Below, piece by piece: positions 24,266 to 28,264 of a DNA stretch of 34,238 nucleotides. Under the pieces are notes generated by a model. That model had not been told where the DNA came from, did no database searches, and saw only the letters and a program-made list of their open reading frames with translations. This DNA is from Candidatus Gastranaerophilales bacterium (GTDB lineage: Bacteria > Cyanobacteriota > Vampirovibrionia > Gastranaerophilales > Gastranaerophilaceae). The stretch lies in contig CANQNX010000009.1 in NCBI GenBank assembly GCA_947625345.1, positions 1-34,238 of the forward strand, in the 5' to 3' direction. The translations under genes were made by a program, and so were the position numbers. Numbering within the stretch: position 1 is the stretch's first letter; each line of letters starts with the position of its first letter.

Positions 24266-24715
24266 CTACTTTAACTTAACGGAACGCTCAACATCTCGAA
24301 CTTGAGCTTTTTTAGCTAAATCTTCTCTCTTATCATATAATTTTTTACCCTTTGACAAAGCTATCTGCACCTTAGCCCAGCCGTTTTCAAGATACATTTC
24401 CAACGGAACTATTGAATAACCGTCTTTTTTTATCTTCCCTATTAATTTTTCTATTTCTTTTTTATTTAATAACAGTTTTCTCACTCTTTTTTCTTCATGA
24501 TTATACCTGTTACCCTGCTCATATAAACTTATATGACAATTATATAAGAAAACTTCACCCTCCTCTATCCTGACAAAACTGTCTTTTAGATTAACGGCAC
24601 ATTTTCTCACGGATTTTATTTCTGTTCCGGTAAGTACCATTCCCGCTTCATATTTATCAAAAATATGATACTCATGAAAAGCTTTTTTATTAGTTGTTAT
24701 TATTTTTTTTCCCAT
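24266..24715 (-). CDS. smpB: SsrA-binding protein
   Basis: Binds tmRNA and delivers it to stalled ribosomes in trans-translation. The 149-residue product shows the family landmarks: [34 protein letters not shown], the CHI segment, and the C-terminal basic tail with GKKLYDKRE and [10 protein letters not shown]. The ATG at 24715 has no Shine-Dalgarno; an extended -10 (TGTTATAAT) ends six bases before it, so the message should be leaderless. The -10 hexamer overlaps the stop codon of the upstream gene. ssrA itself is not in the window. Confidence 0.96.
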
Positions 24716-24721
24716 ATCTTG

Positions 24722-24730
24722 ATTATAACA
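24722..24730 (-). promoter_or_regulatory. Extended -10 promoter of smpB (leaderless)
   Basis: TGTTATAAT on the minus strand, identical to the element at 10354-10362. It ends six bases before the smpB ATG and contains the TAA stop of the upstream 106-residue gene. Confidence 0.6.
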
Positions 24731-25043
24731 TCATAATTGCCTTTTTTATAACCTCCTCGTATATTTTATCTCTTAAAATTTTTATTATTTCTCTGTTATC
24801 AATGTTTAAAGGCAGCTTTAATAATATTGAAGCTTTTATTTTCTTATAATTTTTATAATCATTTATTGACCAATATAAAGCAGAAACTGTTATTAAAACA
24901 GTTTCTTTTGTGAATAACCTGTCTAATATAATCTTACTTCCATTTCTTTCTAATTTTATAATGTAGGATTCGGCATTAGCTATCTCTTTATACTTTTTTA
25001 ACTTAAACAGCTTTTTTATTATTTCTTTTTCACTATTTTCCAT
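24723..25043 (-). CDS. Hypothetical small basic protein
   Basis: A 106-residue, lysine-rich protein with no recognised family. It has alternating charged helices ([20 protein letters not shown]), a short hydrophobic strand region ([11 protein letters not shown]) at about 48-58 and a basic C-terminus. There is no signal peptide or clear membrane helix. It begins three bases after the stop of the 101-residue gene, so the two form an operon. The gene ends inside the smpB promoter. Confidence 0.6.
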
Positions 25044-25046
25044 AAA

Positions 25047-25352
25047 TCAAAATTTATTATTTTCAAATCTTTTTAATTTTCTGTAGTAATAATCTACTTT
25101 ATTATCTATGACAATTTTACATATTCTTAATTCGGCTTTTTCAAAATAAGGTATATCTTTGATTCCAGTTGTTATTTCATAATCTTTGTATATTTTTATC
25201 AAAACATCCTTAATAATGTATATTTTTACGTTTTCAGAAACAAATAAATCCTCTATTATATCTTTAATTATCCTAAACATTTTAAAATCAGGGCATTTTT
25301 TTAAATACACTTTCTTCTGAGGCAGTGTAATCCCCGGTTCATTGTTTACCAT
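25047..25352 (-). CDS. Hypothetical small protein divergent from an XRE regulator
   Basis: A 101-residue protein of unknown function, rich in Lys, Ile and Tyr, with strand and helix alternation and no membrane segment. AAGGAG lies nine bases before the ATG. It is the first gene of a two-gene unit transcribed away from the XRE regulator at 25550; the 197-base gap between them is packed with ATGTAA/TTACAT half-sites, so that regulator is the likely controller of this unit. The pair could be a small regulated module such as a toxin-antitoxin or stress unit, but nothing in the sequences proves it. Confidence 0.6.
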   Translation of the reverse strand: MVNNEPGITLPQKKVYLKKCPDFKMFRIIKDIIEDLFVSENVKIYIIKDVLIKIYKDYEITTGIKDIPYFEKAELRICKIVIDNKVDYYYRKLKRFENNKF

Positions 25353-25417
25353 ACTTTCCGACTCCTTGTAGAATTGTAACTTATTAGCTTATATATCACT
25401 AAAATTAATGCAATAAT

Positions 25418-25528
25418 ATGTAATATGTAGTATAATATTATTGGTTATTATTACATTATATTACATTTATTGGTTTTATCTTACTATATCATGTAAAAAA
25501 TATCAATATTTATTACATAATAATGTAA
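25418..25528. promoter_or_regulatory. Array of ATGTAA/TTACAT operator half-sites
   Basis: The 197-base divergent gap holds ATGTAA at 25418, 25491 and 25523 and TTACAT at 25451, 25461 and 25513. Two TTACAT copies are exactly 10 bp apart. TTACATAATAATGTAA at 25513-25528 is a perfect 6-4-6 palindrome, and 25491-25518 forms 12-bp arms with one mismatch around TCAA. This looks like a cooperative operator region for the XRE regulator at 25550. Confidence 0.55.
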
Positions 25529-25549
25529 CAAAAATTAAGCGAAACTATT

Positions 25550-25969
25550 ATGAGTATTGGGAAAAGAATAAAAGAATTAAAAGCTGCTTTGCATTTGACA
25601 TCAGCAGAAATGGCAAATAAATTAAATATTCCTGTAAGAACTATAGGAAGTTATGAACGTGATGAAGTCCCTCCGGGATCTAAATTTTTAAATCAATTAA
25701 TTGAAATATTATATGTAAACGTTAATTGGCTGCTTACAGGAAAAGGTAATATGTTCATATCCGAAAAAGAAAGTTTGGATTTAAATTATATTGCGAAACT
25801 TCAGGAAAGACTTCATTTATCTAAAGATGAAGTAATGGGAATAATTGAAATTCTTGATTCCGATGCGAGCAGAGAAATGGTGATGAAATTTCTTGAAATA
25901 AAAAACGGAAATAAAGATGCACTTGAAAGTTTGATATATAACCTTCAAGGAATTAAAGCTATATTATAA
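25550..25969 (+). CDS. XRE-family transcriptional regulator, CI-like
   Basis: A 139-residue regulator. The N-terminal Xre helix-turn-helix covers about residues 5-65 (GKRIKELKAALHLTSAEMANKLNIPVRTIGSYERDE gives helices 1-4), followed by VNVNWLLTGKGNMF, a segment common in phage-repressor-like regulators. The C-terminal helical half (about 82-139) may mediate dimerisation. No peptidase motif for autocleavage is seen. No clear Shine-Dalgarno precedes the ATG. The dense half-site array directly upstream suggests autoregulation and control of the divergent pair of small genes. No integrase or other phage gene is nearby, so a prophage origin is not supported. Confidence 0.85.
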   Translation: MSIGKRIKELKAALHLTSAEMANKLNIPVRTIGSYERDEVPPGSKFLNQLIEILYVNVNWLLTGKGNMFISEKESLDLNYIAKLQERLHLSKDEVMGIIEILDSDASREMVMKFLEIKNGNKDALESLIYNLQGIKAIL

Positions 25970-28264
25970 TTAATCCGAATCAACAGGTTCTTTTAAAATA
26001 GCATTTATTGCATCTTTTGCATTTTGTTTTAATTCTTCAGATACACAAGGCAGTATTGTAATTTGCCTTAAAACATCAACTGTTCTTTTGAATACTCTAA
26101 CTATGTCACCTTCGGAGGAATCAATTTGTTTTGCTATATCCTCCCACGGAGTATCTTGTACCCACTGTTCAATTAAGGGTGAATAATATGAATTTATATA
26201 CATTTCAGTATTAATATCATAATCACGTTGAAGTATTGCAATATTTTTTCTTATTTCTTTTATCTTATTTAAAGCTTTTCTTGAGTTTATACTTATTGGC
26301 TGATTAGGATAAACATCCCCTCTTAAATCTTCCGTAACCAATGCACAAATAACGGATGCCAATTCATAAGGTAATAAGTTATCCAACACGCCTTTTAAAA
26401 TGATTTCGGAAAGAAAAAGCTCATTTTCCGCCCTAATCATTGAACAAATTACTCCTGTTTCAGTCGGAGATGCGTTTTTAATATACCCCATTTTTTCTAA
26501 GATTTCTTTATGAGCTATAAATTTTTCCCAATATATATCTTTTTGTTTTTCTATATTTTTTGTAATTTCTTTATATTTTTTTTCATATCTGTTTATAATT
26601 TCAATATTTTTAATATGTTTTTTATAACTGCGGCAGATTTCGCACTTATATTTTTCCATATTTTCTCTAATTTCTCTTGTTTTATTGGTATATTCAACGA
26701 CCTCGGGTGCTTCCTTATTCCCTTTTTGTTTTGCCTGTTTTTGGAGTGTTTTTGTCAATTTTCTATACACAATAAACTTATCTTTTAATTTGTTAAACTC
26801 AATGAAATCATCATTAGTCAGTCCGAACGGGCATTTTTCACTGCGCAATTTAGCAAGAGTTTGTTCACAATTTATCTGTTGAATAATTACGGGCTTGAGT
26901 CTGTCGTTGGAAGAAAAATATCCAAAACTTTTTAGAATTAATTCTTTTGCCTGTTCAAGCTCCAAATTTTGCAGCAAATTAAGCACCATGGAATAACTCG
27001 GGGAAAATCTGCTTTCTAAGGGATTAGAAGAACTTTTTACAAGTTCTGCCACTTCCTCGGGAGATTGAAACTGAGTTCCCATTACGACAACATAGCCTAT
27101 CTTATCCATACCCCTTCTGCCTGCTCTTCCCGACATTTGAAGAAATTCATTTGCGCTGAGCATTCGATGCCCTGAGTCAGTTCTTTTACTTATGGCTGAT
27201 ATAACTGTTGTTCTTGCCGGCATATTGATACCTGCAGCTAAAGTTTCCGTTGCAAATACAACTTTTATTAATCCTTTTTGAAATAATCTTTCGACAAGCA
27301 ATTTCCATGCCGGCAATAAACCTGCGTGGTGAGAAGCTACGCCGTTATACAAATATTCAAGATTTTTATTATTTTCAAGATAATTATACTCTTTTAAAAA
27401 TTCGTTTACTTCCGTTCTTATTTGTTTTGCTTCATCCGGAGTAATAAGATTTATTTGTGAACATTTTTCCATATTTTCATCACATTTTTTACGGGAAAAA
27501 GTAAAAAATATTGCAGGAAGCATATCTTTTTTATGCAAAACATTTATGACATCTTTGACATTATTTCTTTTTTTAGCCTGACGGGAATACATATTAACTT
27601 TTTTCTCAGGTCTGATTTTTTTATTTAATCTTCCCTCGGGAGTTAAAAGAGGTAATATTTCAAACGGTTTTGACGAGTCAAAATAAAAATATCTCAAAGG
27701 AACGGGTCTAAAATCGGTATAAACAAGTTCGGTACCGGAATGAACGGTATTTATCCAATCACAAAGCTGTGAAGAATTGGCAATTGTGGCGCTAAGTGCT
27801 ATTATCTGCACGTTAGAAGGACAATATATAATACTTTCCTCCCAAACCGTGCCTCTTTGTTCATCATTCATATAATGAACTTCATCAAGAACAACATATT
27901 TAACGTCCTTCATCGTATCCTTTGTATTACCGAAATTGGTATTATAAAGCATATTTCTGAATACTTCCGTTGTCATGACAACTATAGGTGCATCCCGATT
28001 AATTGAAGTATCTCCGGTCAACAGTCCTACATTACCTTCCCCGTACTTTTTACCGAAATCATAAAATTTCTGATTTGAAAGTGCCTTTAAAGGGGTTGTA
28101 TAAAAAAGCCTTGTATTTTCCTCTAATGCTCTATGTATAGCGTGTTCAGCTATACAAGTTTTACCCGCACCGGTCGGTGCACAAACAACTATACTCTTTG
28201 ATTTATCTATATAATCAAAAGCTTCTTTTTGAAATTCATCAGGTTCAAAATCAAATTTATACAA
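25970..28264 (-). CDS. Ski2-like DEVH-box RNA helicase
   Basis: A superfamily-2 helicase of 764 residues related to Ski2/Mtr4 and to cyanobacterial and actinobacterial (HelY-like) members. Motif I APTGAGKT is at 29-36, motif II DEVH at 127-130, motif III SAT at 158-160, and motif VI QMSGRAGRRG at 376-385; HHAGLLPAW and FATETLAAGINMPA are typical of the family. A C-terminal region of about 300 residues with a KCEIC cysteine pair follows, likely the helical part including a DSHCT-like portion. It probably unwinds RNA for degradation or processing. The start must be TTG at 28264: an in-frame stop of the preceding gene lies one codon upstream, and no ATG occurs before motif I. Confidence 0.88.
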   Translation of the reverse strand: MYKFDFEPDEFQKEAFDYIDKSKSIVVCAPTGAGKTCIAEHAIHRALEENTRLFYTTPLKALSNQKFYDFGKKYGEGNVGLLTGDTSINRDAPIVVMTTEVFRNMLYNTNFGNTKDTMKDVKYVVLDEVHYMNDEQRGTVWEESIIYCPSNVQIIALSATIANSSQLCDWINTVHSGTELVYTDFRPVPLRYFYFDSSKPFEILPLLTPEGRLNKKIRPEKKVNMYSRQAKKRNNVKDVINVLHKKDMLPAIFFTFSRKKCDENMEKCSQINLITPDEAKQIRTEVNEFLKEYNYLENNKNLEYLYNGVASHHAGLLPAWKLLVERLFQKGLIKVVFATETLAAGINMPARTTVISAISKRTDSGHRMLSANEFLQMSGRAGRRGMDKIGYVVVMGTQFQSPEEVAELVKSSSNPLESRFSPSYSMVLNLLQNLELEQAKELILKSFGYFSSNDRLKPVIIQQINCEQTLAKLRSEKCPFGLTNDDFIEFNKLKDKFIVYRKLTKTLQKQAKQKGNKEAPEVVEYTNKTREIRENMEKYKCEICRSYKKHIKNIEIINRYEKKYKEITKNIEKQKDIYWEKFIAHKEILEKMGYIKNASPTETGVICSMIRAENELFLSEIILKGVLDNLLPYELASVICALVTEDLRGDVYPNQPISINSRKALNKIKEIRKNIAILQRDYDINTEMYINSYYSPLIEQWVQDTPWEDIAKQIDSSEGDIVRVFKRTVDVLRQITILPCVSEELKQNAKDAINAILKEPVDSD

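Follow-up and report, generated by a model that had tools for sequence, protein, structure and literature searches.

A bare phage-type repressor switch, probably of prophage origin, kept between smpB and a helicase gene in gut Gastranaerophilales

The window analyzed here, a stretch of 34,238 nucleotides from a genome of Candidatus Gastranaerophilales, gut relatives of the cyanobacteria (1.6 Mb in 108 contigs), carries a compact module of three small genes between smpB (24266 to 24715, minus strand; PF01668) on its left and a DEAD/DSHCT helicase gene (25970 to 28264, minus strand; PF00270 and PF08148) on its right. Neither flank belongs to the module, and the two adjoin each other in the empty-site genomes G026 and G034. 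Within the module, a gene for an XRE/CI-like repressor of 139 amino acids (25550 to 25969, plus strand) diverges from gene 1 (25047 to 25352, minus strand; 101 amino acids), which is followed by gene 2 (24723 to 25043, minus strand; 106 amino acids). The gap between the XRE gene and gene 1 (25353 to 25549) spans 197 bp at 19% G+C.

The initial annotation had described this gap as a dense array of half-sites, and the description is confirmed. Three copies of ATGTAA (at 25418, 25491, and 25523) and three of TTACAT (at 25451, 25461, and 25513) all fall within the 111 bp from 25418 to 25528. Two of them, the TTACAT copies at 25451 and 25461, lie 10 bp apart; a perfect 6-4-6 palindrome, TTACATAATAATGTAA, occupies 25513 to 25528; and the stretches 25491 to 25502 and 25507 to 25518 form a near-perfect 12-bp inverted repeat with a single mismatch. 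Only two good full palindromes are present in the gap, and we call them O4 (25513 to 25528; perfect TTACAT-N4-ATGTAA, centered 29 bp before the XRE start) and O3 (25481 to 25496; TTACTATATCATGTAA, two mismatches, centered 61 bp before XRE). O2 (25451 to 25466) consists of the two TTACAT half-sites in the same orientation 10 bp apart and is degenerate in relatives, where its TTAC is well kept, and O1 (25418 to 25423) is a lone ATGTAA half-site whose ATGTA is kept in nearly all gaps. The centers of O2, O3, and O4 lie 30 and 32 bp apart in the window.

Taken from the window sequence alone, the signal for this array is moderate. Over the full window, half-sites are no commoner than chance predicts (41 copies, with 40.4 expected). 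Six or more copies in 197 bp arose in about 1 of 3,000 Markov sequences trained on the gap (P = 3e-4) and in none of 3,000 trained on the window; under a stricter test, in which any G/C-containing 6-mer may reach six copies, the gap-trained P value was 0.004 at order 1 and 0.027 at order 2, and the window-trained count was again 0 of 3,000. We take the array as real because it is conserved in relatives. Across the genome, operator sites with at most one mismatch are not enriched (13, versus 23 in a reversed control), as would be expected of a local switch. Two of these sites are perfect, and the second (C29:6021) lies inside an open reading frame (ORF); with no such enrichment, a reading of the operator as that of a regulon was rejected.

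Divergent promoters can be placed in the gap. The putative XRE promoter (25408 to 25436, plus strand) pairs a -35 element ATGCAA, GTGCAA in many relatives, with a -10 element TATAAT (25431 to 25436) over a 17-bp spacer that contains O1; its -35 is a weak match to consensus and was missed by the promoter scan, and the assignment draws on a conserved block. The putative gene 1 promoter (25478 to 25506, minus strand) reads TTGATA-17-TAAGAT, or TTGTAT-17-TAATAT in some relatives, and is overlapped by O3, with O4 just upstream. Since a scan of the gap region returned 12 promoter-like sites where 9.9 were expected, barely above shuffled sequence, both assignments rest on conservation. In G028 and G035, which keep XRE and have no gene 1, the stretch holding O3 and the leftward promoter is deleted, and the rightward -10 and the XRE-proximal site remain; this joint loss fits a role for O3 at the gene 1 promoter. 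The XRE transcript would start near 25443 and carry a leader of about 105 nucleotides, which is not explained by a known RNA family, as an Rfam scan of the window at gathering scores returned no match. Just after this predicted start, the motif GTTGGAA is kept in most gaps of the genus, outside the operators, and is absent as such in the window; it is possibly a leader RNA signal.

Comparison of orthologous gaps ties the half-sites to the XRE gene. After aligning the 215 bp that precede XRE, we compared the final 190 bp of 31 gaps with dinucleotide-shuffled sequence, leaving out G017, G028, G035, G009, G010, and G027 (a second copy at a contig end). Half-sites numbered 102 over the 31 gaps, versus 22.0 expected, and TTACAT-N4-ATGTAA palindromes with at most one mismatch numbered 27, versus 0.44 expected. 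With two mismatches allowed, there were 50 palindromes, versus 4.33 expected, and 28 of the 31 gaps held at least one; the gaps of L039, L049, and L060 held none. These palindromes are also fixed in position. In 27 of the 31 gaps, one lies 59 to 67 bp before the XRE start, at the place of O3, where it is perfect in several relatives, and in 16 of 31, one lies 28 to 35 bp before it, at the place of O4. Collapsing gaps at least 85% identical left the ~62-bp site in 19 of 23 and the ~30-bp site in 14 of 23. The proposal that the array belongs to the regulator and is kept among relatives is thus borne out, and the outcome that the initial annotation named as refuting, half-sites that relatives do not share, did not occur. 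Before the XRE relatives of G009 and G010, the most distant in genus g1, there is no palindrome of three or fewer mismatches.

The operators also travel with XRE into three other genera. G052, in genus g13, has a perfect palindrome, TTACATTATCATGTAA, 62 bp before XRE, together with a divergent gene 1. In genus g20, three genomes carry palindromes 31 and 63 bp before XRE, the latter perfect in all three. All four relatives in genus g22 show a perfect palindrome 45 to 60 bp before the XRE start and a weaker site (one to three mismatches) 30 to 31 bp nearer; the XRE proteins of g22 are short and 44 to 48% identical, and their genes stand in the chromosome beside pilin-like ORFs, with no gene 1. 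The ORFs that diverge from XRE at the g22 loci L132, L133, L134, and L138 have an N-terminal segment resembling that of pilins, and this XRE type may control a surface gene there. Separately, a search of viral contigs for paired palindromes returned 11 loci, two of which (L156:10245-10292 and L159:2233-2279) hold TTACAT-N4-ATGTAA-like sites that adjoin XRE genes at a 31- to 32-bp pitch with nearly the same arms; in L159, the XRE gene is followed by an ORF with an HELGH motif. They may show the same operator geometry serving other repressors, but are no more than suggestive, as their recognition helices look different and the search pattern itself demanded most of the likeness.

The XRE protein has an N-terminal helix-turn-helix (HTH; residues about 4 to 66) and a conserved C-terminal part of about 60 amino acids. 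Pfam HTH_3 and Phage_CI_repr score above their cutoffs (PF07022 at 26.7 versus 22 bits), HTH_19 falls just under its own (28.8 versus 30.2), and the Pfam scan found no Peptidase_S24 domain in the 139-residue protein. The C-terminal part is highly conserved, with NLQGIKAI near its end, and is a candidate for dimerization or antirepressor contact. Weak matches to RmrA and antitoxin models run mostly through the HTH. No relative of the module XRE was confirmed in viral contigs, and a search of 50,697 phage records returned three weak matches, none of them close.

The g20 repressor, by contrast with that of the module, is 219 amino acids long. Its HTH is 56 to 59% identical to that of the window XRE, and both copies scanned carry a Peptidase_S24 domain (E = 1.5e-19 and 2.6e-19). 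The protein shares 30.6% identity with the phage D3112 c repressor along almost all of its length, and a viral contig encodes a 53% relative whose N-terminal part looks different. Judged from ORFs, its neighbors look chromosomal; the small divergent gene beside it resembles gene 1 by eye, a likeness that models do not support (E = 0.003 to 0.12). From g1 to g20, the HTH thus stays paired with the operators, and it is the C-terminal domain that changes. An S24 part about 70% identical to that of g20 recurs in many genomes across other genera of the family (L167 to L193). Of 366 genomes, 51 gave a match, which in at least five of them covered the HTH alone. Usually the match begins after the HTH, with N-terminal parts that seem unlike one another; this hints that CI/LexA-type repressors have exchanged domains.

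Gene 1 links the module to phages. Among 383 family genomes searched with a gene 1 profile, 44 matched. Genus g1 accounts for 32 of these, and the other 12 comprise the G052 module copy, five other full-length homologues, and six partial or weak matches. The five full-length homologues (G046, G151, G199, G340, and G296; loci L124 to L128) are spread over four genera, and all five lie in the same arrangement: a divergent XRE gene, then a small gene, the gene 1 homologue, and phage early genes. A model confirms the small terminase subunit in L124 and in the viral contig L149, and the terminase ORFs of L125 to L127 were assigned by likeness only. Four IMG/VR contigs carry the phage form of gene 1. 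In the viral contigs L149 to L151, it sits in an early operon divergent from the repressor, and the L149 protein is identical to that of L128. A small gene precedes the gene 1 homologue in phages; in the viral contig L152, the ORF upstream resembles an HTH protein by eye. Where prophages carry gene 1 homologues, their repressors are of other XRE types (97 to 184 amino acids), and their gaps are without TTACAT-N4-ATGTAA operators. Of the six partial or weak matches (G170, G275, G139, G317, G308, and G378), two were read, G170 amid DNA methylase-like, SSB-like, and similar ORFs and G275 with no sign of phage.

The reverse search agrees. A profile of the five phage proteins matched 30 of 834 ORFs from the module loci and the window, all of them at the place of gene 1 (best E = 9.6e-12); its match to the gene 1 of the window itself is weak (E = 0.0018), and the gene 1 of L038 was missed. 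An hhalign comparison of gene 1 with the phage family gave 97.5%, versus 0.1% for a gene 2 (A2) control. Profile homology in both directions thus places gene 1 in a family of phage early genes. Among its relatives, one matches phrog_21238, a phage family of unknown function (E = 3e-5); the gene 1 protein found no match in phage records, and module profiles A1 and A3 had no confirmed match in viral contigs. The initial annotation had held that no phage genes were present, a statement contradicted by this family membership and by the CI/LexA S24 domain of the related repressor that shares the operators.

Neither target gene otherwise resembles a described family, as had been claimed: genes 1 and 2 have no NCBIfam or PADLOC family, no credible Pfam family, and no close fold. 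In gene 1, the C-terminal part is predicted to be all-helical, and the N-terminal part is predicted with low confidence. No Pfam HTH was found in gene 1 or in 27 aligned members, and its identification as a cro homologue was rejected. Foldseek returned nothing better than E = 2.9 for gene 1, and a PDB sequence search with the gene 1 and gene 2 profiles returned nothing at E up to 10. Pfam matches of single members were scattered and taken as chance, both for gene 1 (best SirC_C at 4.6e-4, in 3 of 27) and for gene 2 (best DUF3284 at 0.0032, in 1 of 14). Gene 2 evolves fast and is predicted to fold as a helix, four strands, and a helix; its best Foldseek match (5tse; E = 0.028, TM 0.49; LptE-like lipoproteins and RAD52 ranked lower) is not significant and was not used. 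The gene 2 model also matches G189 (E = 4.6e-5), within a 299-residue ORF that has no Pfam match.

In the window, smpB begins 7 bp past the stop codon of gene 2, and the same 7 bp separate them in 16 of the 20 genomes with gene 2. A TATAAT at 24727 to 24722 (within 24716 to 24727, minus strand) overlaps that stop codon and is placed for a predicted start at the A of the smpB ATG, that is, for a leaderless mRNA; it is seen as well in G017 and in the empty-site genomes G026 and G034. A terminator-like hairpin with a T-rich tail lies inside the gene 2 coding sequence (24882 to 24906, minus strand).

The module is found across one genus. A scan of named genomes confirmed 34 XRE loci, labeled Candidatus Gastranaerophilales (29), Cyanobacteria bacterium (SIG29) (1), three gut bacteria, and Candidatus Avigastranaerophilus faecigallinarum. 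XRE lies beside the helicase gene and, where the contig reaches, beside smpB in 34 of the 41 genomes of genus g1 (Gastranaerophilales). The remaining genomes are G009 and G010, which have a 48 to 49% XRE relative elsewhere, and five without an orthologue, in which XRE matches were weak or lacking altogether. Of the 34 genomes, 30 have an intact gene 1; in G001, a contig end truncates it, in G017, a fragment remains, and G028 and G035 have none. In G017 (L070, C1 around 222225), a deletion puts the gene 1 remnant almost at the XRE start; operators and promoters are gone, and the XRE frame is intact. Gene 2 accompanies an intact gene 1 in 20 of 30 genomes and is missing from 10, and it is therefore a dispensable part of the module; together with the g22 loci, where XRE and operators occur without gene 1, this makes XRE and its operators the most constant unit.

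No gene at all lies between the helicase gene and smpB in G026 and G034. In a tree of smpB and the helicase gene, these genomes are nested inside the module-bearing clade, some inner supports being low (0.10 to 0.42), and their empty sites thus likely reflect losses. Of the other smpB sites, those of G009 and G010 have other neighbors; the site could not be read in G008, where the contig ends, or in G012 and G037, where no smpB was found. In G052, XRE, gene 1, and a further ORF occupy a different chromosomal place, not beside smpB, and its XRE falls inside genus g1 in the XRE tree (supports 0.865 and 0.814), a position that hints at transfer between genera. Inheritance of the module between the helicase gene and smpB probably goes back to an early point in the history of the genus, several losses having followed. 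Pairwise dN/dS ranged from 0.02 to 0.17 for XRE (11 pairs). For gene 1, it could be computed in 10 of 11 pairs and lay between 0.07 and 0.28; for gene 2, it could be computed in 6 of 7 pairs and lay between 0.16 and 0.49. Where it is present, the module is under purifying selection, yet it can be lost.

Among known systems, those that most resemble the module are phage-type repressors. RstR (NF041951), a short XRE repressor of a divergent phage gene, is the best NCBIfam match of XRE (E = 1.8e-11, residues 1 to 87), although it scores 44.3 bits against a cutoff of 80 and the match stops before the C-terminal part of XRE. ImmR of ICEBs1 (PDB 7t8i), a short XRE protein that controls the divergent promoter of a mobile element, matches at the level of the HTH (E = 2.7e-7), but the module has no adjacent ImmA-like protease gene and no integrative element between the helicase gene and smpB. 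The g20 form is a full repressor of the CI/LexA S24 type, to which D3112 c belongs, and it shares its HTH type and its operators with the module, whose own repressor lacks S24. From a lambdoid immunity region, the module differs in its repressor without S24, in a first divergent gene that does not encode a Cro-type HTH protein, and in the absence of phage structural or lysis genes beside it, its direct flanks being smpB and the DSHCT helicase gene. The DicA model (NF007257) scores 30.2 bits on XRE, under its cutoff of 101. In the published account (PMC10448788), DicA/DicC of the Qin cryptic prophage of Escherichia coli is a bistable system built on the CI-like repressor of a defunct prophage and conserved in many host strains; the operators between DicA and its neighbors resemble those of lambda PR/PL, and the antirepressor Rem relieves DicA repression. 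On that account (PMC10448788), the module shares with Qin a CI-like repressor, operators between repressor and neighbors, and wide conservation across hosts, whereas Qin has a Rem antirepressor gene and a Cro-like DicC and the module is the switch alone. Gene 1 is not recognizably Cro-like, and no antirepressor is known for the module.

We favor, with somewhat better than even confidence, a reading of the locus as a domesticated prophage-type immunity switch, of the sort by which temperate phages remain dormant. The sequence, its conservation, homology, synteny, loss pattern, selection, and the travel of the operators with XRE are established; from them we infer binding, repression of genes 1 and 2, autoregulation, cooperativity, RecA-independent induction, and descent from a phage. 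At the level of sequence, the locus appears to have the lambdoid layout of a divergent repressor and first lytic-type gene with repeated operator-like sites over both putative promoters. A dimer of the CI-like XRE would bind TTACAT-N4-ATGTAA operators in the divergent promoter region. Occupation of O3, over the leftward promoter, and of O4, just upstream of it, would repress genes 1 and 2, and the O1 half-site in the spacer of the XRE promoter, with O2 just downstream of that promoter, would provide autoregulation. With 30 to 32 bp, or roughly three helical turns, between neighboring centers of O2, O3, and O4, bound dimers would line up along the same side of the DNA, a requirement for cooperative binding. 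A repressor without S24 self-cleavage would escape classical RecA induction, and an antirepressor or some other signal would lift repression; we draw this from the missing S24 domain and from the analogy with DicA relieved by Rem. The former phage would have been lost, leaving the switch and its first targets to be inherited at the helicase/smpB site.

A variant of this history, in which selection kept the phage switch for much of the history of the genus as a resident sensor of incoming phages, we consider unlikely. Antirepressors of an infecting phage, or its RecA-independent signals, would then lift the repressor and activate both targets, gene 1 and gene 2, the latter evolving fast; these would act against the phage or protect the cell, and the S24-bearing g20 form would be an SOS-reading version of the same domesticated device. 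More weight, though still in the range of the doubtful, goes to the main rival, an autoregulated XRE-operator unit of bacterial origin that spread over the family with changing neighbors and came to control genes 1 and 2 (perhaps also smpB by read-through), gene 1 having come from a phage or having been captured by phages. The g22 loci, with an operator pair beside pilin-like ORFs in place of gene 1, strengthen the link between XRE and operators but make this bacterial account more likely, and XRE has no close phage relative. Against it stand the CI/LexA S24 domain and the whole-length similarity of the g20 repressor to phage repressors, as well as the gene 1 homologues, whose position within prophage early operons is constant over four genera. 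The 7 bp between gene 2 and smpB in 16 of 20 genomes would permit read-through, but smpB has its own TATAAT for a leaderless start, in empty-site genomes too, genomes without the module keep smpB, and the G052 module does not lie beside it.

A toxin-antitoxin or small defense pair with an XRE repressor is quite improbable. Small ORFs adjacent to an XRE gene, the fast evolution of gene 2, and the HTH-borne matches to RmrA and antitoxin models would suit such a pair; the genes, however, are divergent, with no toxin-family protein in one operon with XRE, no toxin or PADLOC model covers gene 1 or gene 2, three genomes keep XRE after the loss of gene 1, and G026 and G034 lack the module entirely. 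That the array is AT-rich noise or an effect of composition has next to no credence. In its favor are the 19% G+C of the gap and the modest result of the any-6-mer test with gap-trained models (P = 0.004 to 0.027), but the comparison refutes it: position and sequence are kept in 31 gaps against dinucleotide shuffles, and the same sites precede XRE in three further genera.

The initial annotation, which suggested an undescribed small regulated module, is supported as far as the operator array and the family-less genes are concerned, but the locus is better named a phage-type switch in the chromosome. The kind is already known, namely, a phage-type repressor switch kept in a chromosome. A limited literature search found no description of this module, and new to us is that the bare switch spans a genus, that its intermediate states can be traced, and that a relative bears S24. 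The best-known prophage-derived switches come from few model bacteria and lie within recognizable cryptic prophages. The interest of the module lies in its wide conservation and minimal form rather than in a new principle. From a gut lineage that has received little study, it provides a defined, predicted operator and two protein families without names. A switch reduced to a repressor, operators, and one or two targets is found genus-wide and is kept by purifying selection, some genomes show intermediate states or an empty site, and a related form retains S24; comparison across such states gives access to the question of why bacteria keep phage repressors.
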